Positions 78-54,351 of a DNA stretch of 54,351 nt are shown here, in pieces (the first letter of the stretch is position 1; each line of letters begins with the position of its first letter). Under the pieces are notes generated by a model. It worked only from the letters and a program-made list of their open reading frames with translations, was not told where the DNA came from and ran no database searches. The stretch covers positions 1 to 54,351 of the forward strand of contig CANQQE010000021.1 of NCBI GenBank assembly GCA_947625935.1, read 5' to 3'. A program made the position numbers and the translations under genes. The DNA is from an uncultured Muribaculaceae bacterium (GTDB taxonomy: Bacteria > Bacteroidota > Bacteroidia > Bacteroidales > Muribaculaceae).

Positions 78-411
78 TGGTGCTCCTACATTTGCGGGAC
101 ATCGGTATTTGAATCAGAAATTCTATCATTCTTCTGAATGGAGAAGATTTAAACGTTCAATAATTATTCGAGACAATGGTTGTGATTTAGCTTTACCGCA
201 ATTCGAAATTATTAACGGAGAACCAATTTACATTCATCATCTCAATCCGATTACTATCGACGATTTGGTACACGTAAGACCTTGTGTATTAGATCCAGAA
301 AATGCGGTTTGTGTTACGTTTACGACACATCAATTAATTCACTACGGAATACACGATTTTAACGACGAAATAGTTGAAAGAAAGAAAAACGACACTTGTC
401 CATGGAGGTAA
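1..411 (+). CDS. HNH endonuclease, 3' part (gene starts at 54266 across the join)
   Basis: Across the circular join the gene runs 54266-54274 then 1-411 and encodes about 139 residues. Seen: SSEWRRFKRSIIIRDNGC, then IYIHHLNPI, then LDPENAV and THQLIHYG, the His-His, Asn and His order of a betabetaalpha-metal HNH nuclease; the usual CxxC zinc knuckle is absent. Known: free-standing HNH proteins next to terminase genes assist terminase cutting in cos-packaging phages. It starts inside the end of the TerS-like gene (ATG at 54266, TerS stop at 54271-54273), so the two are translationally coupled. A TTG at 109 gives only a truncated form lacking the N-terminal helix. Inferred role: genome-end cleavage with the terminase. 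Confidence 0.85.
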   Translation, partial: LKSYSELIKLKTYRERLLYLSLSGKVGAPTFAGHRYLNQKFYHSSEWRRFKRSIIIRDNGCDLALPQFEIINGEPIYIHHLNPITIDDLVHVRPCVLDPENAVCVTFTTHQLIHYGIHDFNDEIVERKKNDTCPWR

Positions 412-416
412 TTGAA

Positions 417-1358
417 ATGAATAGTGTTTATGACGATTTTCTTGTTCATCATGGAGTAAAAGGTCAAAAATGGGGAGATAGAAACGGCCCTCCTTATCCG
501 TTATCTCCAGAGACTAAACAGCTTGTAAAAACGGCGAAAGAGTTTTCCACTAATAGAAAGAACATGTGTTACAATCTTCAGAAATGGGGAAAGAATCCTG
601 ATAACAATGTTCTTTATGTTATGGGAACAAGTGCTGATGATTGTGCTACGATGGCGTCTAAGTTTTATGGGCAACACAGACAATCAGAGCTTATTGGTTT
701 AGACCTGTTGTATGACAGTCCTCATACTGGAAGAGGTCTTCAACGTTCTGCTCTTCATTATATTGAAAAGAACGTTCCTGATTACAAGAAAATAGAAGAC
801 AACTTCGATCATTACAAGAAAGAACGCTTCAGCAATTCTGACGACGCCAAATTTTATTGGAAAACAATGAATGAAGTTTGCAATAAAATTCCAGACTATG
901 GAAAAGAACAATTCGACAAAGGAAAAAGAGTAATCGTTTCAGGAACACAATTAATGTCTAAAAATACTGTTACTAATAGAGACTCTCTTATTAAAGGAAG
1001 ACCAACAGTATTGATGGAAACTCGGATTAAAGATGCTGAAGTAATATACCAGAAACAAAAAGGTAATTACGAGAAAGCTATGGGATTAAAGAACATGAAC
1101 ATTTCTCTTAGAAAAATGAGAAATAAGTTTGCAAAAGAATTAGACGCAATGCAAGCCGCTGAATATTATGCTTTTGGCAATAGTCCTATGGTTGCTAATG
1201 CCGGACACAAACAATGGTATTATTCATACATAGCTCAAAATACTCAAAGGAATCTAATGAACCAAATGAACACAATGAATAGAATGAACTACATACATCA
1301 AATGAATACGATGAACCACATACATCAAATGAACATGCATACGATGCATCACATGTGA
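417..1358 (+). CDS. Putative virion-associated protein with N-terminal HHGVKGQKWG tag and Met/His/Asn-rich tail
   Basis: 313 residues. ATG 417 is chosen because GGAGGT at 404-409 sits just upstream; the upstream in-frame codons overlap that ribosome site. Residues 6-20 read DDFLVHHGVKGQKWG, a leader seen on many proteins in phages of Firmicutes and shared in form with the genes at 5440, 8238 and 50378 here. The middle, residues 30-270, is mixed and charged with no family I recognise. The C-terminus is a low-complexity run of Met, Asn, Gln and His, with DNA repeats at about 1255-1355. The gene lies between the HNH endonuclease and connector-type genes, so a virion role is inferred from context and tag. 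Confidence 0.65.
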   Translation: MNSVYDDFLVHHGVKGQKWGDRNGPPYPLSPETKQLVKTAKEFSTNRKNMCYNLQKWGKNPDNNVLYVMGTSADDCATMASKFYGQHRQSELIGLDLLYDSPHTGRGLQRSALHYIEKNVPDYKKIEDNFDHYKKERFSNSDDAKFYWKTMNEVCNKIPDYGKEQFDKGKRVIVSGTQLMSKNTVTNRDSLIKGRPTVLMETRIKDAEVIYQKQKGNYEKAMGLKNMNISLRKMRNKFAKELDAMQAAEYYAFGNSPMVANAGHKQWYYSYIAQNTQRNLMNQMNTMNRMNYIHQMNTMNHIHQMNMHTMHHM

Positions 1359-5038: not shown

Positions 5039-5443
5039 ATGGACGAAATTCATGAAATACTGAAAGAATTATCGTTTGCAGACGCCTATTGGGTTCTCCT
5101 GATTCCTTGCGCTTTGATGGCTCTTGATGTACTGACCGGCGTAATTCAGGCTTGGTCAAGTGGTCACATTAAGAGTTATCGAATGCGTGAGGGATTGGGA
5201 AGAAAGTTTGGAGAAGTAACCATTCTAATTATTGGCGGTTTGTTTACGATCGGGCTTAATATTCCATCTTACATCATGGCTGGCTTTTCTCTTTACATTA
5301 TTATAATGGAATTGATTAGTTTGTGTGAGAATTTGGATAAGATGGGAGTTAAGATTCCTAAATTCATCAAGAAAGCTCTTGGCGAAATCAATGAAGAAAT
5401 TCAAAATGGTAGTAAAGACGAAAAAGAGGGTGGCGATAAATGA
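5039..5443 (+). CDS. Phage holin (holin 4 / Cph1-type family)
   Basis: 134 residues. Hydrophobic segments lie around residues 17-36 (YWVLLIPCALMALDVLTGVI), 59-75 and 78-95, with the ALDVLTGVIQAW signature of this holin family, and a charged C-terminal tail rich in Lys and Glu. Holins form lesions in the inner membrane that release endolysin and set lysis time. It overlaps the next gene by 4 nt (ATGA). The endolysin is 11 kb downstream, so the lysis pair is split. Confidence 0.85.
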   Translation: MDEIHEILKELSFADAYWVLLIPCALMALDVLTGVIQAWSSGHIKSYRMREGLGRKFGEVTILIIGGLFTIGLNIPSYIMAGFSLYIIIMELISLCENLDKMGVKIPKFIKKALGEINEEIQNGSKDEKEGGDK

Positions 5444-6249
5444 AAAATTTTAAAGTAGTTGTCGTCAACGATTCTCTACCAATTAGTATAGAAGATGATA
5501 TCCTGTGCCATCATGGAATTCTTAACATGAAATGGGGCGTGAGAAGATATCAGAATGCCGACGGTTCTCTTACAGAAGCGGGCAAACGTCGATATGCTGC
5601 AAAACAAACTCGTAAAGAGATTAAAGTTGAAGCAAAAAGACAAAAAACAATTGCTAAGGCAGAAGAAAAACGGCAGAAAGCAATTGCTACAGCAGAACGA
5701 AAAGCTAAAGAAGAAAGGATTCGTTACGAAGAAAAACAAAAAGCAAAAATTGAGAAAAATAAAATTCGTATAATTGAAAAAGCAAAAAAGAAAGAATTAA
5801 AGGCTGAAGAAAAAGAGAGAAAAAAGCAGGAAGCATATCAGGCTAAAAAGGAAAATCTAATTGCAAAAGGAAATCCAAGCCAGCTTTATAAAAATCGAGA
5901 AATGTTTACGCAAGAGGAATTTAATAGAGCGGTTGCACGTGCTCAAGCCACTGAAAGACTTAAAGATGAGATCAGAGCTTCTAAACAGAAAGCGGCGGAT
6001 GAAAGTCATCAGAAGGTTGCAAACGTCTTGAGAAACGCTAAAACGGCCACGGCAATTTACGAAAACTATAATGCCATTATGACCGGAGTAAATGCCGTTG
6101 CTGGAACAAACGTGCCAACATTTCCGAAGATTGATGACATGCGTAAAGCAAATTATTATGAGTGGGCTGCTAAACACAACAAGCCTGTTGTTCCTCAGAA
6201 AGTTAATGAATCTAAATACAAGAAAAAGAATAAAAGCGTTTGGAAATAA
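5440..6249 (+). CDS. Tagged coiled-coil virion protein (HHG...MKWGVRRYQ leader)
   Basis: 269 residues. Residues 19-34 read DDILCHHGILNMKWGV, followed by RRYQNADGSLTEAGKRRY, the classic form of this leader in Firmicutes phages. Residues 55-150 are a very Lys/Glu/Arg-rich coiled coil; the rest is helical with a less charged patch at 195-225. It overlaps the holin gene by 4 nt and precedes TerL by two genes. The relation to the tagged proteins at 417, 8238 and 50378 suggests a shared localisation or processing signal. Scaffold- or core-like function is inferred only. Confidence 0.6.
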   Translation: MKNFKVVVVNDSLPISIEDDILCHHGILNMKWGVRRYQNADGSLTEAGKRRYAAKQTRKEIKVEAKRQKTIAKAEEKRQKAIATAERKAKEERIRYEEKQKAKIEKNKIRIIEKAKKKELKAEEKERKKQEAYQAKKENLIAKGNPSQLYKNREMFTQEEFNRAVARAQATERLKDEIRASKQKAADESHQKVANVLRNAKTATAIYENYNAIMTGVNAVAGTNVPTFPKIDDMRKANYYEWAAKHNKPVVPQKVNESKYKKKNKSVWK

Positions 6250-30075: not shown

Positions 30076-30077
30076 AT

Positions 30078-30101
30078 CGCACCGCAGTCAGTTGTTATAA
30101 T
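30078..30101 (+). promoter_or_regulatory. Promoter P1, CGCA-14-TATAAT
   Basis: CGCA 30078-30081, 14 nt, TATAAT 30096-30101, within 10 nt of the ribosome site for the gene at 30118. First member of the promoter family that fills the early block. Confidence 0.75.
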
Positions 30102-30117
30102 GAAAGGAGGAGGTTAT

Positions 30118-30460: not shown

Positions 30461-30528
30461 CTCGCATTTTTTACAACCCATATTATGAAGAGGAAACTCT
30501 ATCATATTTTATGGAGGTATTTATTATG
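30461..30528 (+). repeat. 68-bp promoter-leader repeat, copy 1 (promoter P2)
   Basis: Identical to 30927-30994 over 68 bp. It holds CGCA 30463-30466, ACA, a -10 TATTAT 30481-30486, the 5' hairpin AGAG-GAAA-CTCT, the ribosome site ATGGAGG and the start ATG 30526. A 48-bp part recurs at 32935-32982. Confidence 0.9.
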
Positions 30529-30775: not shown

Positions 30776-30782
30776 CTCCATT

Positions 30783-30806
30783 CGCAGCTCAGACAGTTCT
30801 TATGAT
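30783..30806 (+). promoter_or_regulatory. Promoter P3 for the tRNA-like small RNA
   Basis: CGCA 30783-30786, 14 nt including ACA, TATGAT 30801-30806. No ribosome site or supported ORF follows; a structured region does. Confidence 0.7.
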
Positions 30807-30810
30807 GAAG

Positions 30811-30920
30811 AAATGGGACTGGAGATATACCAGAAACAAAATAGCATAATGGTAATGCGCCTTATATTAGATGAATATAAGGAGACGCGGGTTCGACGAC
30901 CGCAAACCATTTCTTTATTT
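30811..30920 (+). ncRNA. tRNA-like small RNA
   Basis: About 105 nt with its own promoter and a T-rich end. A closing stem AAATGG (30811-30816) pairs with CCATTT (30907-30912). Inside are: hairpin CTGG/CCAG (30819-30833); a D-arm-like hairpin GCAT-AATGGTA-ATGC (30844-30858) with the A14, A15, GG and A21 features of a tRNA; a long hairpin with 8-bp stem 30860-30867/30875-30882 and 7-nt loop TAGATGA; and a T-arm-like hairpin with TTCGA in the loop (30887-30903). The extra hairpin between acceptor and D arm, the lack of U33 and the A-rich acceptor junction mean it is not a normal tRNA. It may be a decayed tRNA or a tRNA mimic. Any reading of it as protein has no ribosome site. Confidence 0.6.
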
Positions 30921-30926: not shown

Positions 30927-30994
30927 CTCGCATTTTTTACAACCCATATTATGAAGAGGAAACTCTATCATATTTTATGGAGGTATTTATTATG
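30927..30994 (+). repeat. 68-bp promoter-leader repeat, copy 2 (promoter P4)
   Basis: Exact copy of 30461-30528: CGCA 30929-30932, TATTAT 30947-30952, GNRA-type 5' hairpin, ATGGAGG and start ATG 30992. Confidence 0.9.
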
Positions 30995-31245: not shown

Positions 31246-31250
31246 CAATT

Positions 31251-31274
31251 CGTCATACAAACAACATCTATAAT
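31251..31274 (+). promoter_or_regulatory. Promoter P5 (CGTC variant) with 5' hairpin
   Basis: CGTC 31251-31254 at the CGCA position, ACA, TATAAT 31269-31274, then a 5' hairpin AGGA-GAAA-TCCT, ATGGAGG and ATG 31317. Confidence 0.65.
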
Positions 31275-31316
31275 GAAGGAGAAATCCTATCAATTATATT
31301 TATGGAGGTTTACATT

Positions 31317-31594: not shown

Positions 31595-31601
31595 TTCAAT
31601 T

Positions 31602-31625
31602 CGCAGCAGAAACCGTTTTTATAAT
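31602..31625 (+). promoter_or_regulatory. Promoter P6, CGCA-14-TATAAT
   Basis: CGCA 31602-31605 and TATAAT 31620-31625, upstream of GAAAGGATG and the gene at 31644. Confidence 0.75.
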
Positions 31626-31643
31626 AGAAAGGATGTGATATGT

Positions 31644-32301: not shown

Positions 32302-32550
32302 ATGGTATCAACAAGGCAAATGGAGATTAAAGATGAACGATATGGCTTTAAAACCTATGAAGATGCTTATGAGTGGGCAATTAATGAGATAAAAGCTCAA
32401 AACTTCGTCACAGAAGAACTTTGTGCTATGGATATTAAAGTAGAAAAACTTGCTCACATGTGTTGTTGTGACGATGAAGAACCCGAAGAAGATTTTTGCG
32501 CTAAACTTTTCTTTAGCTATCTACACTGTGAGGAAGACGAATCGCAGTAA
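32302..32550 (+). CDS. Small acidic protein with CCC motif
   Basis: 82 residues; ATG 32302 after AAAAGGAG. A helix TYEDAYEWAINEIKAQN leads to HMCCCDDEEPEEDFC and LHCEEDESQ. The stop codon lies inside promoter P7 (CGCAG TAA). The Cys/Asp/Glu cluster might bind metal; unproven. Confidence 0.55.
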   Translation: MVSTRQMEIKDERYGFKTYEDAYEWAINEIKAQNFVTEELCAMDIKVEKLAHMCCCDDEEPEEDFCAKLFFSYLHCEEDESQ

Positions 32551-32566
32551 GAACGTTCCATATAAT
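32543..32566 (+). promoter_or_regulatory. Promoter P7 with 5' hairpin
   Basis: CGCA 32543-32546, ACG at the ACA position, TATAAT 32561-32566. Then TAGAGA/TCTCTA hairpin and ATGGAGG before ATG 32607. Confidence 0.75.
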
Positions 32567-32606
32567 AGAGATATTTCTCTAATGCAATTTTATGGAGGTT
32601 TTAACT

Positions 32607-32912: not shown

Positions 32913-32916
32913 CAAT

Positions 32917-32982
32917 CGCAGTAAGAGCAGGTTATATTATGAAGAGGAAACTCTATCATATTTTATGGAGGTATTTATTATG
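32917..32982 (+). promoter_or_regulatory. Promoter P8 and shared leader
   Basis: CGCA 32917-32920, TATTAT 32935-32940. From 32935 to 32982 it is identical to the 68-bp repeats at 30461 and 30927 (5' hairpin, ATGGAGG, ATG). Confidence 0.8.
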
Positions 32983-33247: not shown

Positions 33248-33252
33248 TTTTC

Positions 33253-33276
33253 CGCACTCAGAACATCTTCTATAAT
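33253..33276 (+). promoter_or_regulatory. Promoter P9, CGCA-14-TATAAT
   Basis: CGCA 33253-33256, ACA, TATAAT 33271-33276. Its leader contains a ribosome site followed by a minimal start-stop ATGTAA at 33293-33298 before the gene at 33322. Confidence 0.75.
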
Positions 33277-33321
33277 AGAAAGGAGAATATTTATGTAAAA
33301 ATTAAAAAGGAGGTATGTAAA

Positions 33322-33668: not shown

Positions 33669-34331
33669 ATGAAAGAAAATATAGTGGTACCAGAAGATGA
33701 ATGGCAAACAGATTATCTCAATTCATATACGAATGCTTCAGAAACACTTAGAAAAATTGTGTCAATGCTTAAGGAAGAACCGGTTATGAGAGAAGTAACG
33801 TTTGAGGGTGGAGCAAAAAGAATCATGGAAAACAAAGGACGTTTCGATTTGCTACCAGAATCGCAGATTGCTGATATTTACCAGACCAAGCTCCTTATCA
33901 GCATAGACCCTAAGCATTTTCAACCCGAGGAAGCGACAGAAGAAGAACTAACATATGAGATTACTCAATTGTTATATAGTTTTTCTGTAAAAGATTATGA
34001 GAATCATGTTAACGTAGCAGAAACATATAACTCTTTGAGACTTTTGGTTCTTTATATTTCTTATGCGCAATATAACACAGAACCCGGAGACGATTATGTT
34101 TCTAAAATGGTTAAACAACTCGCAATTCACGTTCAGAAAGGCGCTGAAAAGTACGGAGAGCGTAATTGCGAAAAAGGGATTCCGTTCTGGTCGTTTATTG
34201 ACAGCGGAAGAAGACATATCACTCAGTGGTTACTGCATGAGACTGATGAGAATCATGCTATCAGTGCGATTTGGAATTTCCTGTATGCAATGTGGACGAT
34301 AGATAATTCGCAGTCCACACAATCGCTATAA
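33669..34331 (+). CDS. dATP/dGTP diphosphohydrolase-like (MazG-type) protein
   Basis: 220 residues after AAGGAGG. Seen: AKRIMENKGRFDLLPESQIAD near residue 48 and, in the C-terminal half, GAEKYGERNCEKGIPFWSFI, DSGRRHITQWLLHETDENHA and ISAIWNFLYAMW. These are the hallmark pieces of the phage dATP/dGTP diphosphohydrolase family (formerly DUF5664), helical NTP pyrophosphohydrolases. It could adjust dNTP pools together with ThyX. No PurZ is present, so there is no sign of a 2-aminoadenine genome. The stop overlaps the -10 of promoter P10. Confidence 0.7.
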   Translation: MKENIVVPEDEWQTDYLNSYTNASETLRKIVSMLKEEPVMREVTFEGGAKRIMENKGRFDLLPESQIADIYQTKLLISIDPKHFQPEEATEEELTYEITQLLYSFSVKDYENHVNVAETYNSLRLLVLYISYAQYNTEPGDDYVSKMVKQLAIHVQKGAEKYGERNCEKGIPFWSFIDSGRRHITQWLLHETDENHAISAIWNFLYAMWTIDNSQSTQSL

Positions 34332-34332
34332 T
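34309..34332 (+). promoter_or_regulatory. Promoter P10, inside the 3' end of the upstream gene
   Basis: CGCA 34309-34312, ACA, TATAAT 34327-34332 overlapping the stop TAA. A 5' hairpin GAGGGT-GTT-ACTCTC follows. Very similar to P15 at 44556. Confidence 0.75.
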
Positions 34333-34375
34333 GAGGGTGTTACTCTCAAAATTATATTCTATGGAGGTATTTATT

Positions 34376-34660: not shown

Positions 34661-34664
34661 CTCT

Positions 34665-34688
34665 CGCATTTATTACAATGCATATAAT
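34665..34688 (+). promoter_or_regulatory. Promoter P11, CGCA-14-TATAAT
   Basis: CGCA 34665-34668, ACA, TATAAT 34683-34688, just before AAGGAGG and the gene at 34705. Confidence 0.75.
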
Positions 34689-34704
34689 GAAGGAGGTGCC
34701 CTAT

Positions 34705-36108: not shown

Positions 36109-36816
36109 ATGAATGTAGTTCTTCTAACGCCTGAACAGGATTTCGAGGCAATCGTAGCCACAGCCGCAAGAACGTGTTATTCATCAGAAAAACCGGAAGA
36201 TATTTTTGATTCTTTTCGATTTATACAAGACACGAAGAAAGCGGAAATTATCAGAACTCTTAAAAAGAGACATCACGAAACACCTTTCGAGCATGTTTCT
36301 TTTACTTTCGCGATTTCTGGTATTTCCAGAGTTACTTTAGCACAATTGACACGTCATAGATTGGCAAGCTTCTCTGTTCAGAGTCAGAGATATTCCGATT
36401 TCTCTAATAACGAACCAGTAATCCCTGAGTTTTTTGAGACGTTTGAAGAAACCAGAGAATTGATATTTAGAGATTACCAAGCCGCTAAAGATTTTGTAAA
36501 AACTTACTATGTTAAAGAACTTCATATGTCAGAAAAGGATGCCGAAAAGAAAGCACAAGAAGACGCTCGTTATATTTTGCCACAATGTGAATCTACAAAC
36601 GTTGTAATGACTATGAATGCACGTGAATTAATGCATTTCTTCAATCTTAGATGCTGTAATCGTGCGCAATGGGAAATCAGACAGCTTGCTAATGAGATTC
36701 TTAGGATTTGCAAGAAAGTCGCTCCTATTATATTTGAAGACGCTGGTCCATCTTGTGTTAGAGGCGCTTGCCCAGAAGGAGAATATGGTTGTGGCAATCC
36801 AGTAAATCGCAGTTGA
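36109..36816 (+). CDS. thyX: Flavin-dependent thymidylate synthase (ThyX)
   Basis: 235 residues. RHRLASFSVQSQR at residues 82-94 is an exact ThyX motif (RHRxxSxxxxSxR). HHETPFEHVSFTFAISGISR before it and MNARELMHFFNLRCCNRAQWEIR after it are also typical. It makes dTMP from dUMP using methylene-THF, NADPH and FAD, supplying phage DNA synthesis. Coupled to small genes upstream; its last codons hold promoter P12. Confidence 0.95.
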   Translation: MNVVLLTPEQDFEAIVATAARTCYSSEKPEDIFDSFRFIQDTKKAEIIRTLKKRHHETPFEHVSFTFAISGISRVTLAQLTRHRLASFSVQSQRYSDFSNNEPVIPEFFETFEETRELIFRDYQAAKDFVKTYYVKELHMSEKDAEKKAQEDARYILPQCESTNVVMTMNARELMHFFNLRCCNRAQWEIRQLANEILRICKKVAPIIFEDAGPSCVRGACPEGEYGCGNPVNRS

Positions 36817-36831
36817 GACAGCTCCTATAAT
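36808..36831 (+). promoter_or_regulatory. Promoter P12, overlapping the thyX stop
   Basis: CGCA 36808-36811, ACA, TATAAT 36826-36831. Confidence 0.75.
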
Positions 36832-36848
36832 GAAAGGGGTGTATAATT

Positions 36849-36978: not shown

Positions 36979-36996
36979 CATCTATTATATTTTTAC

Positions 36997-37020
36997 CGCA
37001 TCTTGAACAATCTATATAAT
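36997..37020 (+). promoter_or_regulatory. Promoter P13, CGCA-14-TATAAT
   Basis: CGCA 36997-37000, ACA, TATAAT 37015-37020, reading into the micro-ORFs and the gene at 37117. Confidence 0.75.
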
Positions 37021-37038
37021 AGAAAGGAGGTATAATTA

Positions 37039-39601: not shown

Positions 39602-39602
39602 T

Positions 39603-39626
39603 CGCACACGAAACAGTTCATATAAT
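39603..39626 (+). promoter_or_regulatory. Promoter P14, CGCA-14-TATAAT
   Basis: CGCA 39603-39606, ACA, TATAAT 39621-39626, upstream of AAAGGAGG and the gene at 39654. Confidence 0.75.
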
Positions 39627-39653
39627 GAATACTAACAAAAGGAGGAGTCGTTT

Positions 39654-44553: not shown

Positions 44554-44555
44554 AT

Positions 44556-44579
44556 CGCAGTCCACACAATCGCTATAAT
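44556..44579 (+). promoter_or_regulatory. Promoter P15 with 5' hairpin
   Basis: CGCA 44556-44559, ACA, TATAAT 44574-44579. Nearly the same as P10. Leader hairpin GAGGG...CTCTC, then ATGGAGG. Confidence 0.75.
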
Positions 44580-44623
44580 GAGGGGGAAACTCTCAGAATT
44601 TATATTTTATGGAGGTAATTATT

Positions 44624-44916: not shown

Positions 44917-44930
44917 AAGGAGGTAAATTC

Positions 44931-45131: not shown

Positions 45132-45139
45132 CATAAAAT

Positions 45140-45163: not shown

Positions 45164-45165
45164 TT

Positions 45166-45193: not shown

Positions 45194-45220
45194 CGACGAC
45201 CAAAAGGAGGAATTGATATT

Positions 45221-45481: not shown

Positions 45482-45497
45482 TAAGGAGGAAATTATC

Positions 45498-45962: not shown

Positions 45963-45972
45963 GATATTTTAT

Positions 45973-46018
45973 AAGACTATAGGGATTGGAAACGGTTCCT
46001 ATAGTCTTTTGTTTTTTT
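45973..46018 (+). terminator. Terminator
   Basis: AAGACTATAGGGAT pairs with GTTCCTATAGTCTT allowing G-U; then a long T run. Confidence 0.85.
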
Positions 46019-46047
46019 TATGTTGATATTTAAAAGGAGGAGCTTTT

Positions 46048-47058: not shown

Positions 47059-47072
47059 AAGGAGTGGTTTGT

Positions 47073-48314
47073 ATGGCTGGTATTACAAATCCCAACTTTC
47101 TCAATAGTTTTCAGAAGTCTGCAATTGAGCGTCTTGATAGTGGTAATATTCTTGTAGGTCAGGTTGGTTCTGGTAAATCCAGGACCGCCTTGGCTTATTA
47201 TTTCTTCAAAATTGGTAAAGGAGACATTACCAATAAAGATGGTTATGTTCCAATGCTAGAAGAAATAGACCTTTATATTATCACTACTGCTAAAAAGCGT
47301 GATAGTTTTGAATGGGAAGATGAAATGTGTCCATTTTTATTGAGCACACATAAAGACGTTTGTATGTATGATATTAATATTGTAGTTGATTCTTGGAATA
47401 ATATTAAAAAATACAAAGACATTAAGAACGCGTTCTTTATATTTGATGAACAACGATTAATTGGAAATGGAACGTGGGTTAAAACTTTTCTCCAAATTGC
47501 TAAAAATAATAAATGGATATTGTTAACAGCTACTCCTGGAGACACTTGGATGGACTATATCCCTGTGTTTTTAGCAAATGGTTTTTATAAAAATAGAACA
47601 GAATTTATTGCCGAACATGTAATTTATTCTCCTTTTACTACAAAATTTAGAAAAGTTCAACGTTTTGTAGGAATTAAAAAGTTAGTACGATTAAAAGATC
47701 TAATCGTAGTTAATTTAGAAAAAACAGAAAAAAATATTAAACGAAACAAAATTTTTAAAAAAGTTAATTACAATAAAGAAATGTATAAAAAAATACAAAA
47801 GAATCGTTGGAATTATGAAAAAAACGAACCGATTAATGATATTTCTGAATTATTTATGCTATTAAGAAAAGAAATTAATACATCAGAAGATAGAATTAAC
47901 GAATTAAAAACCATTTTACTTAATTGTGATAAAAGTATTATATTCTATAACTTCAATTGCGAACTCGAATTGTTAAGAAATGTTTGCGACGAATTGGGAA
48001 TAAATTATTCTGAATGGAATGGACATAATCACGATCCATTACCAGAAGGAGAAAAATGGGTTTATTTGGTTCAATACAATGCCGGAGCTGAAGGATGGAA
48101 TTGTATCACTACAAACAATTTGATATTCTATTCTCCTAATTATAGTTATAAAATGATGGTACAAGCAGCCGGACGAATTGATAGAATGAATACCCCGTTT
48201 GATGAATTGAACTATTATATTTTAAAATCTGATGCGCCAATTGAACGAGCAATTTGGCACGCATTAGATAATAAGAAAAACTTTAATGAGTCAAAATATT
48301 ATAAAGGACTATAG
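47073..48314 (+). CDS. Superfamily 2 helicase
   Basis: 413 residues; ATG 47073 is 8 nt after AAAAGGAG, the GTG at 47064 lies in that site. Motif I GQVGSGKS at residues 29-36, a DEQR (DExx) motif II, LLTATPG motif III, and in the second lobe VQYNAGAEGWN and MVQAAGRIDRMN (motifs V and VI). Helicase of the DEAD/SNF2 type acting on DNA replication or repair intermediates. Lies between SSB and nuclease genes. Confidence 0.8.
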   Translation: MAGITNPNFLNSFQKSAIERLDSGNILVGQVGSGKSRTALAYYFFKIGKGDITNKDGYVPMLEEIDLYIITTAKKRDSFEWEDEMCPFLLSTHKDVCMYDINIVVDSWNNIKKYKDIKNAFFIFDEQRLIGNGTWVKTFLQIAKNNKWILLTATPGDTWMDYIPVFLANGFYKNRTEFIAEHVIYSPFTTKFRKVQRFVGIKKLVRLKDLIVVNLEKTEKNIKRNKIFKKVNYNKEMYKKIQKNRWNYEKNEPINDISELFMLLRKEINTSEDRINELKTILLNCDKSIIFYNFNCELELLRNVCDELGINYSEWNGHNHDPLPEGEKWVYLVQYNAGAEGWNCITTNNLIFYSPNYSYKMMVQAAGRIDRMNTPFDELNYYILKSDAPIERAIWHALDNKKNFNESKYYKGL

Positions 48315-48331
48315 GAGTGAGGTGATGTCAT

Positions 48332-48523
48332 ATGAAAAAACATGAACCATACCACTACAATCATCCAAAAATCAGAATTAAAGAAACTGGAGAAGAATTT
48401 AGAACCTATGGGGATGTAGCAAAACGTATAAATGGTAATAAAGGATGTGTATATCTTTGTTTGCAAGGAATGAGAAAAAAGCATAGAGGGTTTTCGTTCG
48501 AGTACGTGAGAAGAAAGAAATAG
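48332..48523 (+). CDS. Free-standing NUMOD1-like DNA-binding module
   Basis: 63 residues after AGTGAGGTG. RIKETGEEFRTYGDVAKRI, then GCVYLCLQGMRKKHRGFSFE: the layout of the small HTH module usually fused to HNH homing endonucleases. Basic overall. No nuclease domain follows, so it may be a leftover or a small regulator. Confidence 0.5.
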   Translation: MKKHEPYHYNHPKIRIKETGEEFRTYGDVAKRINGNKGCVYLCLQGMRKKHRGFSFEYVRRKK

Positions 48524-48538
48524 TGGGGGTTGATATTT

Positions 48539-48943
48539 ATGAAAATGCCTGAAACACTTATGGATTTTGTTAGTTTTTATGACGACGAGACGGTCGATTC
48601 GTTTGTTAGTTGTAAACTAATAAAATCAAAAACAAGAGTAATCGGTTTTGTTGCGTTTTCTATCTTTTTCGAATATGTAATAGTTCTTGATCATGATAAT
48701 GGCGATTATACATCTCTCGAGTTTTACAGACCCTTTATTCCGGAAGAAACTAATAGACTAATTGGAACATTAAAAGAAAAATACGCTTTTACCGATTATG
48801 TAATTGCTGAAATTTGTAACGTATCAGCTCCTCATGTCAACAAAAAACTAAAACTCTGGAACAAACAAAAACTTTTATTAAAAGAAGTTAATCGTGAAAT
48901 GCCAACTTATAAAATTAATAAGGAGGATAGGCATCATGGATAA
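48539..48943 (+). CDS. Putative DNA-binding protein with C-terminal HTH (paralogue C)
   Basis: 134 residues; ATG 48539 after GTGGGGG. N-terminal beta part (VIGFVAFSIFFEYVIVLDHD) then LKEKYAFTDYVIAEICNVSA and PHVNKKLKLWNKQ, an HTH in the same place as in 34893 and 35262. Likely a diverged member of that group. Confidence 0.5.
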   Translation: MKMPETLMDFVSFYDDETVDSFVSCKLIKSKTRVIGFVAFSIFFEYVIVLDHDNGDYTSLEFYRPFIPEETNRLIGTLKEKYAFTDYVIAEICNVSAPHVNKKLKLWNKQKLLLKEVNREMPTYKINKEDRHHG

Positions 48944-49022
48944 TATTTCTGTTAAGGAATTGAATGAATTTTTCAAAGACTTAATTAAAAAGTATATTGA
49001 CCACGAGGAGGATAAGAAATGA
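48936..49022 (+). CDS. 28-residue charged peptide
   Basis: ATG 48936 after AAGGAGGATAGG. MDNISVKELNEFFKDLIKK and YIDHEEDKK. Overlaps both neighbours by a few nt, so part of a coupled run. Confidence 0.45.
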   Translation: MDNISVKELNEFFKDLIKKYIDHEEDKK

Positions 49023-49201
49023 GCGTTTATATTTCTATAATTTTAATTCTTATGGCTGTAATTTTTATTACAAAATGTACTATTTCAATTGTAGGCGGTA
49101 TTCTTAAGTTCTTTTTAACAATTCTTTTATGGATGTTATTAATTTCTTTAATACTTTTATGTCCAATATTTATAATTTTCTTACTATTTAGAAAGAAATA
49201 A
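49019..49201 (+). CDS. Small very hydrophobic membrane protein
   Basis: 60 residues. Almost wholly membrane helix: YISIILILMAVIFITKC, then FFLTILLWMLLISLILLCPI and FRKK at the end. Starts in the previous stop (ATGA). Function unknown. Confidence 0.55.
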   Translation: MSVYISIILILMAVIFITKCTISIVGGILKFFLTILLWMLLISLILLCPIFIIFLLFRKK

Positions 49202-49234
49202 ATAAAAATATGAATTAATTGATAAAATTTTTAA

Positions 49235-49390
49235 TTTTTTCAAATCGATTTAATTTTTTAATTTTTTTTCAAAACTAATTTAATTTTTTTAATTTTTTTC
49301 AAATCGATTTAATTTTTTTAAATTTTTTTCAAAACTAATTTAAAAATTTATTATTTTTTCAAACCGATTTAAAAGTTTTAATTTTTTCTG
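49235..49390 (+). repeat. 30-bp tandem AT-rich array, candidate replication origin
   Basis: T6-8 followed by CAAA recurs with its C at 49241, 49270, 49300, 49330 and 49360, so the period is 29-30 bp. Units alternate between CAAATCGATTTAA and CAAAACTAATTTAA. The stretch is almost pure A/T, would melt easily and has phased T tracts. It lies in a 317-nt gap between membrane and nuclease genes, in the replication block. Iteron-like origin is inferred. Confidence 0.55.
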
Positions 49391-49392
49391 CC

Positions 49393-49428
49393 AAACCATA
49401 GGAATTCAAACAATTCTTATGGTTTTTC
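49393..49428 (+). terminator. Terminator with CAAAC loop
   Basis: AAACCATAGGAATT pairs with AATTCTTATGGTTT, loop CAAAC, T run. Confidence 0.85.
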
Positions 49429-49441
49429 GACGATAAAGTTT

Positions 49442-49465
49442 CGGTTTTTATGCTACCCCTATAAT
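49442..49465 (+). promoter_or_regulatory. Promoter P16 (weak match)
   Basis: TATAAT 49460-49465 followed by a 5' GAGGGATATTCTC hairpin, as at other promoters; CGGT replaces CGCA. Serves the nuclease genes and probably the RNA polymerase-like gene. Confidence 0.55.
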
Positions 49466-49518
49466 GGAGGGATATTCTCAACTATTCTTTTATTTTTTAA
49501 TGAAAGGAGGGTTATAAA

Positions 49519-49815
49519 ATGGCAAAGGAATCAGAATTTCAAAAAAGATTTATTAAAAAAGTTGAAAATCTATTTCCTGATTGCGTCATTTTAAAAAACG
49601 ATTCTTCCTATAAACAAGGAATTCCTGATTTAAGCATTTTCTATAAATCGAAATATGCTTTTATAGAATGCAAGAAATCAGAAAAAGAACACCGCCAACC
49701 AAACCAAGAGCATTATATTAATAAATTTAATCAAAACGCTTTTGGCTCTTTTGTTTATCCGGAAAATGAAAGAGAAGTCCTTCAAATGTTAAAATTATAT
49801 TTTGAGGAGGAGTAA
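49519..49815 (+). CDS. VRR-NUC-like nuclease (PD-(D/E)XK)
   Basis: 98 residues after AAAGGAGGG. GIPDL with D37 and FIECKK with E50 and K52 give the PD-(D/E)XK catalytic set; a basic helix and HRQPNQEHYINKF follow. Stand-alone VRR-NUC proteins act as structure-specific or junction-resolving nucleases in phages. It precedes a second nuclease by 3 nt. Confidence 0.8.
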   Translation: MAKESEFQKRFIKKVENLFPDCVILKNDSSYKQGIPDLSIFYKSKYAFIECKKSEKEHRQPNQEHYINKFNQNAFGSFVYPENEREVLQMLKLYFEEE

Positions 49816-49817: not shown

Positions 49818-50372
49818 ATGAATTTTAACAAACACGCAAACCTATCCGGTACTCATGCTTTTTTGTCAGCTTCGAAACATCATTGGGTCAATTACGATGA
49901 TAAACGGCTCAAACAAGCTTACGTCAATTTCTTAGCCGCACAAAAAGGAACCGAATTGCACGAATTTGCCGCCAAGTGTATCGAGTTAGGAATTCGTATC
50001 AAATCGAACAATAAAACTTTAAATTCTTACGTCAATGATGCTATTGGATTTAAGATGACGCCAGAGCAGCCATTATACTATAGCGATAATTGCTACGGAA
50101 CATGTGATTCTATCGCCTTCCGCAATGATATTCTGCGAATCCATGATTTGAAGACTGGAAAACTTCCTACTTCCATGGACCAGCTTTATATCTATGTAGC
50201 GTTGTTTTGTTTAGAATATGGCATTAAACCTGGCGAGATCCAAATAGAGACGAGAATTTATCAGAACGGTGACGTGGCTACAGAGAATCCTACGGCAAGT
50301 GATATTCTGCCAATTATGGATAAGATTAAACGTTTCGACAAAATAATTGAACGAATAAAAGAAAAGGGGTAA
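49818..50372 (+). CDS. Cas4/RecB-like exonuclease (PD-(D/E)XK)
   Basis: 184 residues after GAGGAGGAG. H48 in KGTELHEFAAKC, D97 in GTCDSIAF, then LRIHDLKTGK with D110 and K112, and QLYIYVALF, the order of RecB-family nucleases. No Cys cluster for an iron-sulfur centre, so it is closer to RecB-type than classic Cas4. Likely processes DNA ends in replication or recombination. Confidence 0.7.
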   Translation: MNFNKHANLSGTHAFLSASKHHWVNYDDKRLKQAYVNFLAAQKGTELHEFAAKCIELGIRIKSNNKTLNSYVNDAIGFKMTPEQPLYYSDNCYGTCDSIAFRNDILRIHDLKTGKLPTSMDQLYIYVALFCLEYGIKPGEIQIETRIYQNGDVATENPTASDILPIMDKIKRFDKIIERIKEKG

Positions 50373-50377: not shown

Positions 50378-53065
50378 ATGAAAGACGATTTTCTCGCTCA
50401 TTACGGAACGCCAAGACATTCTGGTAGATATCCTTGGGGATCTGGTAAAAAACCGCAGAGAAGCAGAGATTTTCTTTCTCGATATGACGATCTCAAAAGT
50501 AAAGGATTTACAGAAGCCCAGATCGCTGAAGGATTAGGTCTTCGCTCGACAACAGAGCTTAGAAATCTCAAAACAAACGCTATCGAAGAAGGAAGGGCAT
50601 ATAGAGACCACATGGTTCGTAAGCTTAAAGATAAAGGCATGTCCAACGTAGCAATTGGTCAACGTTTAGGCATTAACGAATCGGTAGTAAGGCGTGTTCT
50701 CGATCCTAAGTATGCTCCGAAACAGACAACTCTTACCATGGCTAAAGACCTCCTTAAGAAAGAAGTTGGTACTGATGGGCTCATTGATGTTGGCAAGGGC
50801 GTCGAGAAGAATCTCGGCATGTCTGATAATACTCTTAAGTCCGCCATTGCTGGTTTAAAACAAGAGGGATACTCCGTTGTAAACCTCCAAGTTAAACAAG
50901 CGTTCGGTAAGGGATACACCACTGTCCAAGTTCTTGCCCCTCCTGGAACTACGTATAAAGACGTTAGTTCTAATATGGAAAAGGTGCGTTTGCCTTATTC
51001 CTACATGGTTGAGAATGGAACACAAGTTAACAAATTGCATCCTCCTGTCAACATTAGCAGCGATAGAATTCAAGTTCGTTATGCTGAAGATGGCGGCACA
51101 CAAAAGGATGGCGTCATTGAGCTTAGACGTGGTGTTCCCGAGCTGGATATGGGCAATTCCAAATACGCTCAGGTTCGTGTTGCCGTAGACGGTACTCATT
51201 ATCTTAAAGGAATGGCTGTTTACAACGACGATATGCCTGATGGTGTAGACATTATCTTCAATTCCAATAAAGCTAAGGGTACTCCGAAAGAAAAAGTCTT
51301 TAAGAAACAGAAAGCAGAACCAGACAATCCTTTTGGTTCTACAATCGACCGTCAGAACGATTACGTTGATGCAGACGGTAATAAACACGAAGGAGCTCTT
51401 AATATTGTAAGAGAAGAAGGAGCTTGGGGTCAGTGGAAGAAGTCTCTTGCCGCTCAGATGCTTTCCAAACAGTCTCCCGAGCTTGCTAAGAAACAACTCG
51501 GACTTGCTTCTGCTCAGAAAGACGAGGAATTCGAGGAGCTTCTCACAATTACTAACCCCACCGTTAAGAAGAACGCCCTTATCGATTTCGCTGATGAGTG
51601 TGATAGGTCTGCTGTAGACCTTAAAGCCGCCGCATTACCGAGACAGGCATCAAGAGTTATCTTGCCAATTACGTCGTTGAAAGAGAATGAGATCTTTGCT
51701 CCTGATTTGGAGAATGGTGAAGAAGTGGCTCTTATCAGATACCCTCATGGTGGAATCTTCGAAATACCCAAACTTAGAGTAAATAACAAGAACCAAGAAG
51801 CTAAATCTGTTATTGGTACTGATGCTAAAGACGCTGTTGGTATCCATTTTAAAGCCGCAGAACAGCTTTCTGGTGCAGACTTCGATGGAGATACCGTTCT
51901 TGTCATTCCTACTAAGAATATTAAACTCAAAAACATGGCACCTCTGGAACAATTGAAAGACTTCGATCCTAAAGCCGCTTATCCAGAGCGTGAAGGAATG
52001 AAATATCTTGGTAAGAGTAATGGCGGTGTTTCTAAGGGAATCGAAATGGGTAAGATTTCCAACCTCATTACTGACATGACAATTCAGATGGGCGATAATC
52101 TCAATACTGAAGAACTTGCTCGTGCTGTTAGACATTCTATGGTAGTAATCGATGCTGAGAAACACAAGCTGGATTACAAGCAGTCCTATATCGATAATGG
52201 TATTGCAGAACTTGTCAAAAAGTATCAACCTAAAGACGAAGAAGGACAAGGGGGTACTTCGACATTATTATCCCGTGCTAAACACAAAGAGCCTATTCGT
52301 AAGCGTTCTGATCAGTATGGAATTGACCCAATTACTGGCGAAAAGGTTTATCGTGATGCTAAGGATACAGAATACCAAGTTGCTATTAAAGACGATAAAG
52401 GCAATGTAATTGCTACCGAGACTCGTACAAAACATCAGAAAGTATACTCTATGTCTGTAGTAAAGGATGCTCATGAACTTTCTTCTGGTACAGAAATGGA
52501 GTCTATCTATGCTGATTATGCCAATTACATGAAAGCTCTTGGTAATCGCGCAAGACTGGAGTCTACTAAAATTGTAGAACCCGCTAAAAACAAATCTGCT
52601 GAGAAAGTGTATAGTAAGGAAGTAGATTCTCTTAAATCTAAGCTCGATCTTGCAGAAGCTAATGCTCCTCGTGAACGGCAGGCTCAGATACTTCAGAACG
52701 TACTCTATGCCCAGAGAGAACAAGACAATCCCTTTATGGACGACGATGAAAAGAAGAAGGCTAAGAATCAATGTCTACGTATTGCAAGAGAACGTACGGG
52801 GGCTAAGGGGTACAATATCCAGTTCTCAGATAAGGAGTGGGAGGCTATCCAAGCAGGGGCGGTATCCAAAACTATGTTGGACTCCCTCATAAAGAAATCC
52901 GATAAAGATAGGGTAATGGAACTGGCCCTACCCCACCAGAAGGTAACCATGTCCCCTGCAAAAGTAGCTCTTGCCGAAGCCATGCTTTCTTCAGGTCACA
53001 CAATTAAAGAAGTTGCTGACAGACTTGGTGTTTCTACGTCCTTGGTTACGGATAGTATTAAATAA
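50378..53065 (+). CDS. Single-chain RNA polymerase-like protein (double-psi barrel, DFDGD) with virion-type tag
   Basis: 895 residues after AAAAGGGG. Residues 3-23 are DDFLAHYGTPRHSG then RYPWGSG, the tag seen on proteins of the virion block. Residues 44-64 and 87-108 look like HTH units (TEAQIAEGLGL; SNVAIGQRLGINESVVRRV). Residues 276-293, LKGMAVYNDDMPDGVDII, resemble the beta-subunit barrel motif (KG...EDMP...VDI). Residues 446-460 (GEEVALIRYPHGG) and SGADFDGDTVLV with D501, D503 and D505 match the beta' barrel whose three Asp hold the catalytic metal. A third HTH ends the protein (TIKEVADRLGVSTSLVTDS). YonO and crAss-like phage polymerases have this one-chain layout. Inferred: a phage transcriptase, perhaps packaged. 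No experimental data can be read here. Confidence 0.7.
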   Translation: MKDDFLAHYGTPRHSGRYPWGSGKKPQRSRDFLSRYDDLKSKGFTEAQIAEGLGLRSTTELRNLKTNAIEEGRAYRDHMVRKLKDKGMSNVAIGQRLGINESVVRRVLDPKYAPKQTTLTMAKDLLKKEVGTDGLIDVGKGVEKNLGMSDNTLKSAIAGLKQEGYSVVNLQVKQAFGKGYTTVQVLAPPGTTYKDVSSNMEKVRLPYSYMVENGTQVNKLHPPVNISSDRIQVRYAEDGGTQKDGVIELRRGVPELDMGNSKYAQVRVAVDGTHYLKGMAVYNDDMPDGVDIIFNSNKAKGTPKEKVFKKQKAEPDNPFGSTIDRQNDYVDADGNKHEGALNIVREEGAWGQWKKSLAAQMLSKQSPELAKKQLGLASAQKDEEFEELLTITNPTVKKNALIDFADECDRSAVDLKAAALPRQASRVILPITSLKENEIFAPDLENGEEVALIRYPHGGIFEIPKLRVNNKNQEAKSVIGTDAKDAVGIHFKAAEQLSGADFDGDTVLVIPTKNIKLKNMAPLEQLKDFDPKAAYPEREGMKYLGKSNGGVSKGIEMGKISNLITDMTIQMGDNLNTEELARAVRHSMVVIDAEKHKLDYKQSYIDNGIAELVKKYQPKDEEGQGGTSTLLSRAKHKEPIRKRSDQYGIDPITGEKVYRDAKDTEYQVAIKDDKGNVIATETRTKHQKVYSMSVVKDAHELSSGTEMESIYADYANYMKALGNRARLESTKIVEPAKNKSAEKVYSKEVDSLKSKLDLAEANAPRERQAQILQNVLYAQREQDNPFMDDDEKKKAKNQCLRIARERTGAKGYNIQFSDKEWEAIQAGAVSKTMLDSLIKKSDKDRVMELALPHQKVTMSPAKVALAEAMLSSGHTIKEVADRLGVSTSLVTDSIK

Positions 53066-53098
53066 TATTATTAACCCATAAGAAAGGAGGTGCGGTTC

Positions 53099-53341
53099 TT
53101 GTCTAAACGAGTAGTATCCATTACAACAATTGACAACCCTTTTGACCCTATTGATGACTTCGATAAATGGAACCAGTACGATGTTGGAAAAGGATACAAT
53201 ACATGTTCTTACCTTGCACGTCTCGCTAAAACTTCTTTTGACATGAGCGATTTAGATAATGAACTTGAAGAAGAAAGAGCAATTGATTCGATTTGTTATT
53301 GGAATCCAATGATTTATCGAAAAGTTGTTCGACAAATTTAA
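53099..53341 (+). CDS. Conserved small phage protein upstream of TerS
   Basis: 80 residues from TTG 53099, 8 nt after AAAGGAGG. TTIDNPFDPIDDFDKWNQYD, GYNTCSYLARLAKTSFDMSD and YWNPMIYRKVV. Related proteins are common just before terminase genes in Firmicutes phages; function unknown. Confidence 0.6.
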   Translation: MSKRVVSITTIDNPFDPIDDFDKWNQYDVGKGYNTCSYLARLAKTSFDMSDLDNELEEERAIDSICYWNPMIYRKVVRQI

Positions 53342-53680
53342 TTAATTTTTGAAAAAGTTTTGCGAAAGTTTTAGTTTTTAATCGGTCAAAACAAATAAAA
53401 TAATACTGTATCTCCTGTTTCATACTTTTTGGCCCAGTCAATTTTAAATTGGCTTTGGTTTTAAGCTTTAACTTTCGCAAACTTTTAATAAAAATTTAAA
53501 AATTAATTTAAAAATTGTAAAAAGTTTTTACAATTACTATAAAGTTTAAAAAATTTTTTGAAAAATTTAAATCGGTTTTAAATTTTTTAATTTTTTTTCA
53601 AAACGTTTTTAATTTTTTAAAAATTTTTTCAAAACTTTTTAAAATCTTTTCAATTTTTTAAAACTTTTTTCTCAATTTTA
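53342..53680 (+). repeat. AT-rich repeat region with palindromes
   Basis: No gene. It holds an inverted repeat (AAAGTTTTGCGAAAGTTTTAG near 53351 facing CTTTAACTTTCGCAAACTTT near 53465), a perfect 23-bp palindrome at 53513-53535, and several T-tract plus CAAAAC units like those at 49.2 kb. Could be a second origin element or the flank of the packaging site. Confidence 0.5.
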
Positions 53681-53760
53681 CCACCCTCCCGGGGGGTCTG
53701 AAATCACGCCCCACCCCTCCACATCGCCGACTCTCTTCAGAAATTCTCCGGGGGTAAAAT
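53681..53760 (+). other. GC-rich candidate cos/packaging region
   Basis: After 340 nt of AT-rich DNA the sequence becomes C/G-rich, with CCCTCCCGGGGGGTC at 53685-53699, CCCCACCCCTCC near 53710 and CTCCGGGGG at 53747-53755. It lies between replication genes and TerS-HNH, where cos sites of HNH-type phages lie. Inferred only. Confidence 0.45.
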
Positions 53761-53786
53761 TTCATTGATATTTTTCAAACTTAGAG

Positions 53787-53905
53787 CCTCTTTCCAGCTC
53801 TTATAGGTGAGTGCAAACTGCGGTGTGTTTGCTTGCTCCTCCTTTCGGTCGGTTGGTCGCCTCCATAAAATTGTCATAAAGTTCCCTATAAGAGCTGGAA
53901 AGAGG
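53787..53905. repeat. 21-bp perfect inverted repeat around a 77-nt loop with anti-SD sequence
   Basis: 53787-53807 and 53885-53905 are exact reverse complements (CCTCTTTCCAGCTCTTATAG plus G). The 77-nt loop contains a hairpin GCAAAC...GTTTGC, then CTCCTCCTTTC and CCTCCATAAAA, which are complementary to the ribosome sites GAAAGGAGGAG and TTTTATGGAGG used throughout this genome. It lies 41 nt before TerS. Confidence 0.75.
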
Positions 53906-53946
53906 TCCTAAAGTCGCCGCAATCTATAGAAAAGGACTGATATTCT

Positions 53947-54273: not shown

Positions 54274-54351
54274 GTTAAAAAGTTATTCGGAGTTAATAAA
54301 ACTGAAAACTTATAGAGAACGTTTATTATATTTAAGTCTTTCTGGTAAAGT
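54266..54351 (+). CDS. HNH endonuclease, 5' part (continues at position 1)
   Basis: ATG 54266 begins MNELKSYSELIKLKTYRER and the frame runs off the end of the window; bases 54275-54351 equal 1-77, where it continues. See the entry at 1-411. The start overlaps the TerS-like stop by 8 nt. Confidence 0.85.
   Translation, partial: MNELKSYSELIKLKTYRERLLYLSLSGK
54275..54351. repeat. Terminal direct repeat (copy 2)
   Basis: Exact copy of 1-77; see that entry. Confidence 0.9.

Follow-up and report, generated by a model that had tools for sequence, protein, structure and literature searches.

A predicted single-chain RNA polymerase with an N-terminal peptide tag and a linked promoter-like motif in a phage genome from a Muribaculaceae assembly

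The contig CANQQE010000021.1, from an assembly of an uncultured Muribaculaceae bacterium (GCA_947625935.1, hereafter the host assembly), was analysed over its full length of 54,351 nt, which is referred to here as the window. The gene of interest is an open reading frame (ORF) that begins with ATG, encodes 895 amino acids, and was confirmed as real; it is described together with the peptide tag at the N-terminus of its product and a promoter-like motif found in the same sequence (Table 1). The protein is a full-length member of the family phrog_4291, with residues 2–895 aligned to positions 8–906 of the 909-position profile (E = 0, 1146.7 bits). The PHROG name of this family is 'RNA-dependent RNA polymerase', and the same name appears in several RefSeq records. 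A tblastn search over 50,697 phage records identified homologues in 250, 249 of which covered at least 80% of the query, all at less than 60% identity. The hosts were Arthrobacter (95), Gordonia (55), Streptomyces (54), Lactococcus (13), and others, and a further 12 records were 'Siphovirus' contigs. Among the matches listed, most were labelled 'HTH DNA-binding protein' or 'helix-turn-helix DNA-binding domain protein', and further labels included 'RNA-dependent RNA polymerase', 'hypothetical protein', 'putative RNA polymerase', and 'structural protein'. Among 149 genomes of the same order, the polymerase was detected at E ≤ 1e-50 only in the host assembly, where two further phages, on contigs C13 and C19 (loci L007 and L008), contain divergent copies with 43–45% identity. 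Relatives were also drawn from IMG/VR with an alignment-based scan (the best 80 of 506); a single-protein scan of IMG/VR, for which the query peptides were non-conserved, found no relatives.

The first-pass annotation, made from the sequence alone, had proposed a one-chain RNA polymerase with the motif SGADFDGD (D501, D503, and D505), a beta'-like strand upstream of it, and a beta-like segment further upstream. These elements are present in the proposed order, with GEEVALIRYPHGG upstream of DFDGD and KG...NDDMPDGVDII upstream of that. Loss of the three aspartates in homologues had been named as grounds for abandoning the proposal, and the opposite was found. In an alignment of the window protein with 12 phage homologues taken by whole-protein tblastn and the phage 1706 homologue taken by accession, with no motif used in the selection, the residues S498–D505 (SGADFDGD, including the aspartate triad), K277, G278, P287, R454, P456, and H457 were invariant in 14 of 14 sequences. 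The Pfam profile HTH_23 matched all 14 members, and the Pfam RNA-dependent RNA polymerase (RdRP) profile matched 11 (best E = 7.1e-5). The three helix-turn-helix (HTH)-like units that had been described were also recovered, as HTH profile matches at residues 82–108 and ~864–892, a PHROG match at residues 31–65, and helix groups at residues 32–85, 90–133, and 860–894 of the predicted structure.

The AlphaFold2 model, based on an alignment of the window protein with 70 homologues, had a mean predicted local distance difference test score (pLDDT) of 86.1 and a predicted template modelling (TM) score of 0.77, with residues 1–28 below a pLDDT of 50; the homologues were chosen among 145 tag-bearing sequences, so conservation of the tag in this alignment arises by selection. 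When the PDB was searched with Foldseek, the top match was QDE-1 (E = 9.9e-11, 926 columns, 13% identity), followed by P74 gp62 (E = 6.4e-8) and the plant RDR2, with RNA polymerase large subunits at E values of ~0.003–0.03. Viral models that were matched include the P23-45 protein A7XX94 and phage proteins annotated as RdRPs. The strand pattern of the model, read by eye, fits double-psi barrels at approximately residues 225–346 and 424–511, and there were weak structural matches to rare lipoprotein A (E = 0.22–0.43), a double-psi barrel. At the level of sequence, phmmer and profile searches of the PDB gave no convincing polymerase match; the matches were to HTH proteins, designed repeats, and a phage beta' chain at E ~0.9. 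Because the model matches QDE-1 and the P74-26 polymerase in Foldseek, the polymerase proposal passed the check by structure prediction, and the predicted fold and the family together support the classification of the protein as a single-chain two-barrel RNA polymerase. The family name raises the alternative that this is a true RNA-dependent RNA polymerase, and the nearest folds do include QDE-1 and RDR2, in line with the Pfam RdRP matches. However, the gene occurs in the genomes of double-stranded DNA tailed phages and is linked to a promoter-like motif in DNA, and QDE-1 itself was solved on a DNA template (title of entry 7y7r). An RNA template is therefore very improbable.

A HYG...GRYPWG leader had also been noted at the N-terminus, with the suggestion that the protein may be packaged and ejected. 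The leader is present as HYGTPRHSGRYPWGSG, and a related tag occurs in most members of the family. Relatives were scanned with GADFDGD/SGADFDGD and HSMVVI-type patterns, and 178 ORFs were picked by DFDGD, so that aspartate conservation within this set is non-independent. A regular expression for the H.G..SGRYPWGSG-type tag, applied to the first 150 residues, matched 163 of these 178 entries, which include the window twice, one gene twice (L008/L009), and near-duplicates. The 15 misses comprised four entries with a cut or fragmentary N-terminus (L009, L024, L070, and L167), nine with variant tags (L066, L084, L118, L130, L139, L153, L160, L168, and L177), one with the tag further in (L056), and one in which none was visible (L137). 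In L056, the polymerase frame continues upstream into a 2H-phosphoesterase-like stretch, with the tag between the two; this is either a fusion or merely an open frame. The polymerases of the C13 and C19 phages have different forms of the tag (HVGV..PPGRGSGRFGYGTG and HSGV..PPGRGSGRYAWGSG).

Two other proteins encoded in the window carry tags of a shorter type, which corresponds to the Pfam family PF23847 (DUF7211, HHGVKGMKWG). This profile matched 98 of 100 representative tagged proteins, selected from 123 eligible ones with some short sequences excluded by hand; in their alignment, only H, G, W, and G were invariant, and the mean column identity was 5%. When the tag was trimmed from 340 tagged proteins, they split into 131 clusters, the largest with 146 members and one of 11 consisting of polymerase fragments, indicating that the DUF7211-type tag sits on largely unrelated bodies. 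Both tag forms commonly have L at position −2 (84% of 264 polymerase tags and 91% of 320 others), and an acidic residue occurs at position −4 in 61% of the polymerase tags versus 36% of the other tags; some of the 264 polymerase tags had been collected with the pattern GRYPWGS, and the regular expression fixes H and G in both forms. The SGRYP[WF]GSG form was seen on few non-polymerase proteins (L201, three times; L232; and L394). In L201, three adjacent SGRYPWGSG-tagged proteins are encoded on one 4.7-kb contig, some of which look acetyltransferase-like at the end when read by eye. In the window, GRYPWG at 46315–46331 was considered as a second polymerase-type tag and rejected: it is in frame, at residue 90 of a 336-amino-acid ORF, and lacks the HYG part.

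The two tag forms also tend to occur together. A DUF7211 query of 39 amino acids matched 238 phage records at E ≤ 10, many of them weakly. Compared by host tally rather than record by record, DUF7211 and polymerase counts were 95/95 for Arthrobacter, 55/55 for Gordonia, 53/54 for Streptomyces, 11/13 for Lactococcus, 4/7 for Curtobacterium, 3/4 for Microbacterium, and 4/4 for Rhodococcus, with the 12 'Siphovirus' contigs outside the listed tag tally. All 13 named polymerase phages have DUF7211, as do 31 of 33 contigs selected by the promoter-like motif described below, and it was found in none of 14 control genomes. In the host assembly, 12 DUF7211 matches fell on contigs C13, C19, C21, and C105; C105, with four of these matches and no polymerase match found, is perhaps a fragment of a further phage. 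In Lactococcus phage 1706 (EU081845), the polymerase homologue orf75 and a second protein, orf7 (DILQHRGVIGMRWG), are both tagged, and both are among the 11 of 76 ORFs labelled 'structural protein' or 'major structural protein', a label that suggests virion analysis. The likeness of the tag to DUF7211, its co-occurrence with DUF7211 proteins, and the label in phage 1706 lend support to the suggestion that the polymerase may be packaged.

The promoter-like motif, with the consensus TCGCA-N6-ACA-N5-TATAAT[GA], was first spotted by eye in the gaps of the early region and then tested. An iterated position weight matrix (PWM) started from five sites identified 16 sites in the window, all on the plus strand and all at 30096–49460, in the early region, with none on the minus strand and none at 1–30,000. 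Their scores ranged from 25.0 to 41.8 against a shuffle threshold of 11.3, the matrix having been trained on the sites themselves; with the five-seed PWM alone, 15 plus-strand and 0 minus-strand sites passed, and a PWM built with the window left out found 9 and 0, respectively, in the window. A sigma-70 scan of 27,500–47,000 yielded 70 sites versus 66.4 expected, and k-mer counts in the intergenic gaps were at or close to chance. The first, loose pattern gave 26 matches versus 11.05 expected (0 of 100 shuffles) and was dropped because true and chance sites were mixed. No motif site was found with the PWM at the late genes of the window, so late transcription would need another route. Terminator-like hairpins were seen at 30745–30764, 31566–31585, and 32883–32902 (three identical copies of GAGGACTGAAACAAGTCCTC), and also at 33210–33244, 34633–34654, and 36940–36978. 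They finish 8–18 nt ahead of promoter-like sites, and several small early genes therefore resemble terminator–promoter units.

The motif was then compared across 17 phages of 33–61% GC, namely the window, the two sister phages of the same assembly, and 14 named phages. YCGC at exactly −19 of −10-like words was the commonest plus-strand offset in 14 of the 17 (for example, Yotsuba, 9 of 11 words; Bing, 9 of 13; Poco6, 12 of 30; Qui, 24 of 80; and the window, 11 of 193). In the other phages it was seen once in 1706, once in P162, and not in oengus, and the minus-strand total over all 17 phages was 3. Leave-one-out PWMs gave plus-strand matches above the shuffle maximum in every phage, the window included, with totals of 186 on the plus strand versus 6 on the minus strand (two oengus sites were counted twice). 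Variant forms were recovered in this way in P162 (TTTAAG..TTTTACA..TATAATG), 1706, and, weakly, FP_oengus; the C13 and C19 phages also carry their own variants. In 1706, of which positions 1–50,000 were scanned, 12 plus-strand matches lay at 24,045–42,919, past the structural genes. The window PWM alone found no plus-strand match in the oengus piece, in the first 20 kb of C19 (1 on the minus strand), or in the structural part of ReqiPepy6 (1 on the minus strand).

The distribution of the motif follows that of the polymerase. Allowing one mismatch at most, the pattern matched 13 times in the 3.69-Mb host assembly, each time on one of the three polymerase contigs, which make up 4.7% of the bases, and the backward pattern matched once. 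A stricter exact pattern gave one match across all 149 genomes of the same order and none in the host, a weak control because the host itself was also unmatched. In IMG/VR, the pattern occurred in at least 120 stretches, versus 1 stretch when read backwards. The matches listed include 33 distinct contigs of 35 kb or longer that bear the motif, and 31 of these had polymerase matches, 30 of them full-length or nearly so; the polymerase is cut at residue 787 in G018, there is a 28% partial match in G017, and none was found in G011 and G020, although G011 and G017 have DUF7211. In 71 of 107 further loci (those with the tag present and at least 4 kb upstream), the motif lies 0.7–1.4 kb upstream of the polymerase, approximately at the operon start, with 0 on the minus strand and 0 in shuffles; the PWM score limit of >13 was set by hand, and related loci are mutually non-independent. 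As judged from these sequence comparisons, the motif is a family-specific promoter-like element linked to this polymerase, and the earlier claim that the enzyme transcribes phage DNA gains support from it.

The reading that we consider best, with a probability of roughly 0.7, is that the protein is an early RNA polymerase delivered by the virion and acting on promoters of its own. The enzyme, DNA-dependent and with two barrels in one chain, would be synthesised in the infected cell, packaged into the virion by way of its N-terminal HYG..SGRYPWGSG peptide, which is disordered in the model, and ejected together with the phage DNA. In the new cell, the HTH domains and the core would recognise TCGCA-N6-ACA-N5-TATAATG sites, and the polymerase would first transcribe the early genes and afterwards the operon in which it is encoded. 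This reading fits best because a motif at the early genes and often also at the operon, a tag like that of terminase- and portal-adjacent proteins, and one virion label are combined in it.

Several observations weigh against this reading. The whole-chain superposition in Foldseek was poor (TM ~0.3, root-mean-square deviation ~20 Å), and therefore the domain positions differ. The tag of the window polymerase had no DUF7211 match at E ≤ 1 and is below the Pfam cut-off, that of the D_HF4_2 polymerase matched DUF7211 weakly (E = 6.5e-4, 15.8 bits versus a cut-off of 27), the polymerase contig G031 had no DUF7211 match, and the 'structural protein' label in 1706 comes from the sequence record. The site at the operon of the window is the weakest of the 16, and at the chosen threshold the operon promoter was missing in 36 of the 107 loci. 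The exact-type pattern (at most one mismatch) matched 5 of 13 named phages, with 21 plus-strand and 0 minus-strand matches; FP_oengus had no match to the window PWM and 0 YCGC at −19, its weak variant matches appearing in the leave-one-out PWM only; and the motif contig G020 has neither the polymerase nor DUF7211. Furthermore, TATAAT is the −10 consensus of sigma-70, so the sites could be used by the host polymerase with a phage activator.

This last point leads to the main rival explanation, in which host RNA polymerase transcribes the early genes, TATAATG is an ordinary −10 box, TCGCA and ACA bind a phage activator, and the phage polymerase acts later or elsewhere. The sites do lie in early regions, where host polymerase is usually the first to act, but the start of TCGCA lies 19 nt ahead of TATAAT, a distance that does not correspond to the −35 spacing, and no match with up to one mismatch was found in the remaining 95% of the host assembly. 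Moreover, the motif follows the polymerase across phages of widely differing GC content, often before the polymerase operon. We regard this explanation as unlikely, although it deserves to be taken seriously.

The position of the polymerase gene beside nuclease genes, outside the head module, would suit a non-virion phage polymerase, made from host-driven early transcripts and then transcribing further genes, with the peptide serving otherwise, such as in binding replication or assembly proteins. There are precedents in two studies: YonO transcribes a late-gene operon of SPbeta (PMC5467207), and the non-virion RNA polymerase gp64 of P23-45 was undetectable in virions (PMC10770324). Nevertheless, the polymerase tag resembles that of proteins encoded near the terminase and portal, the 1706 homologue bears a virion-type label, and an operon promoter of the same class occurs in many loci, which implies that first synthesis would need enzyme already present. 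A non-virion enzyme is accordingly rather unlikely. This explanation and the host-polymerase one can both hold, and their odds overlap.

The virion-delivery reading can be extended, tentatively and as a proposal that could easily go either way, to the lineage as a whole. The H-[HY]-G...WG peptide may be a general capsid-entry and ejection signal by which varying proteins, the polymerase included, enter the heads of phages in a large siphophage lineage, and this lineage may bring a self-contained early transcription kit, consisting of the enzyme and its dedicated promoters, that works across host phyla without host sigma factors.

The polymerase is encoded in an operon in the order VRR-Nuc (or endonuclease), exonuclease, polymerase, and small gene, which is kept in most of the annotated relatives examined (oengus, D_HF4_2, and contig89 being only partly annotated); in Lactococcus phages P162 and 1706, lysis and other genes separate the exonuclease from the polymerase. 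An ORF of 50–130 amino acids directly follows the polymerase in 151 of 171 loci, according to a mechanical search in which some picks were off-frame. In the window, this is the 83-amino-acid phrog_4303 protein, a candidate partner of the polymerase; its AlphaFold2 model has a pLDDT of 96.5, and a PDB search revealed no relative (best match, E = 4.5). The operon is followed by a 605-nt non-coding stretch (53342–53946) with A/T-rich repeats, a GC-rich patch, and a 27-nt inverted repeat (53781–53807/53885–53911, 93% complementary), possibly a cos site or a late control region. Positions 1–77 and 54275–54351 form an exact 77-bp terminal overlap, which suggests that the contig is the closed assembly of an entire phage genome, ~54.27 kb long.

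Table 1. Polymerase, tagged proteins, operon genes, and promoter-like sites in the 54,351-nt window.
Feature	Position	Strand	Basis
Single-chain two-barrel RNA polymerase (predicted), 895 aa	50378..53065	+	phrog_4291 E = 0; Foldseek to QDE-1, P74 gp62
N-terminal tag DDFLAHYGTPRHSGRYPWGSG, within residues 1–28, disordered in model	50378..50461	+	tag regular expression; pLDDT <50 for 1–28
Catalytic DFDGD, residues 501–505	51878..51892	+	conservation; aligned with YonO DNDGD
Second tagged protein (DDFLVHHGVKGQKWG)	396..1358	+	PF23847 over cut-off
Third tagged protein (DDILCHHGILNMKWGVRRYQ), just before terminase large subunit (6479)	5440..6249	+	PF23847 over cut-off
VRR-Nuc domain gene of polymerase operon	49519..49815	+	PF08774 E = 8e-4 (below its cut-off); phrog_93; same order in relatives
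Exonuclease gene of polymerase operon	49818..50372	+	phrog_3953 E = 3.1e-77
Small conserved companion gene directly downstream of polymerase	53090..53341	+	phrog_4303
Promoter-like site	30077..30109	+	score 30.7
Promoter-like site	30462..30494	+	score 37.8
Promoter-like site	30782..30814	+	score 35.7
Promoter-like site	30928..30960	+	score 38.9
Promoter-like site	31250..31282	+	score 29.6
Promoter-like site	31601..31633	+	score 33.5; also in assembly pattern search
Promoter-like site	32542..32574	+	score 29.3; also in assembly pattern search
Promoter-like site	32916..32948	+	score 34.8
Promoter-like site	33252..33284	+	score 32.3; also in assembly pattern search
Promoter-like site	34308..34340	+	score 37.7
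Promoter-like site	34664..34696	+	score 35.1; also in assembly pattern search
Promoter-like site	36807..36839	+	score 39.9; also in assembly pattern search
Promoter-like site	36996..37028	+	score 33.5; also in assembly pattern search
Promoter-like site	39602..39634	+	score 27.6; also in assembly pattern search
Promoter-like site	44555..44587	+	score 41.8
Promoter-like site before VRR-Nuc/exonuclease/polymerase operon; TCGGT, without ACA	49441..49473	+	score 25.0

The set-up proposed here would be common to phages of very different bacteria and has so far been hidden under labels such as 'DNA-binding protein'. If the virion-delivery reading is true, many well-sequenced actinophages (of Arthrobacter, Gordonia, and Streptomyces) and gut siphophages would begin infection with a self-carried polymerase and not that of the host, which would account for the presence of the gene in so many phage records. 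In that case, the early promoters of these phages would also become readable, a short peptide possibly able to load proteins into phage heads would be at hand, and a sigma-free enzyme–promoter pair could be used as a tool. The enzyme, the tag, and the promoter are directly testable in cultured phages of laboratory hosts.

The class of enzyme is already known from QDE-1, YonO, phi14:2 gp66, and P23-45. The promoter-like motif TCGCA-N6-ACA-N5-TATAATG is new here; in the open-access literature searched, there was no match for the promoter family, its cross-phylum tie to the polymerase, or the likeness of the tag to DUF7211. The proteins of phrog_4291, such as Scap1 gp55, Qui gp246, the FP_oengus 'putative RNA polymerase', and 1706 orf75, belong to the same family over their full length. 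In the records examined, they are called RdRP, HTH protein, structural protein, tail fiber protein, or transcription factor, and none of these records mentions promoters or packaging. DUF7211 is a short H-H/Y-G...WG peptide, mostly near the N-terminus; the tag of the polymerase resembles it but is longer, of the SGRYPWGSG type.

YonO of Bacillus phage SPbeta is also a single chain, and BLASTP aligns it with residues 450–595 of the window protein, placing DFDGD on DNDGD, but the alignment spans just 152 columns at 28% identity, with E = 1e-4 for a single pair. A profile comparison with hhalign indicated no homology (probability 1.9), and a relationship to the YonO family over most of the chain was not found by these sequence comparisons. 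The AR9 and phiKZ virion and non-virion RNA polymerases are multi-subunit enzymes of jumbo phages, whereas the window enzyme is single-chain; those phages have phage-specific early and late promoters with other motifs, the AR9 late promoter being AACA-N6-TA/G. Another parallel, by its description in PMC10770324, is gp66 of the crAss-like phage phi14:2, a single-chain virion RNA polymerase with QDE-1-like elements.

Like the window phage with its predicted enzyme, P23-45 and P74-26 are long-tailed and have single-chain two-barrel polymerases, and P74 gp62, presumably the counterpart of P23-45 gp64, is among the top fold matches of the window polymerase. All 14 aligned members of the window family have an HTH profile match. 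The P23-45 virion RNA polymerase gp96 is fused to the tape measure protein, whereas the window enzyme stands on its own and carries a peptide tag. As with the motif described here, phage-specific promoter motifs track the enzyme among the relatives of P23-45, according to that study (PMC10770324).

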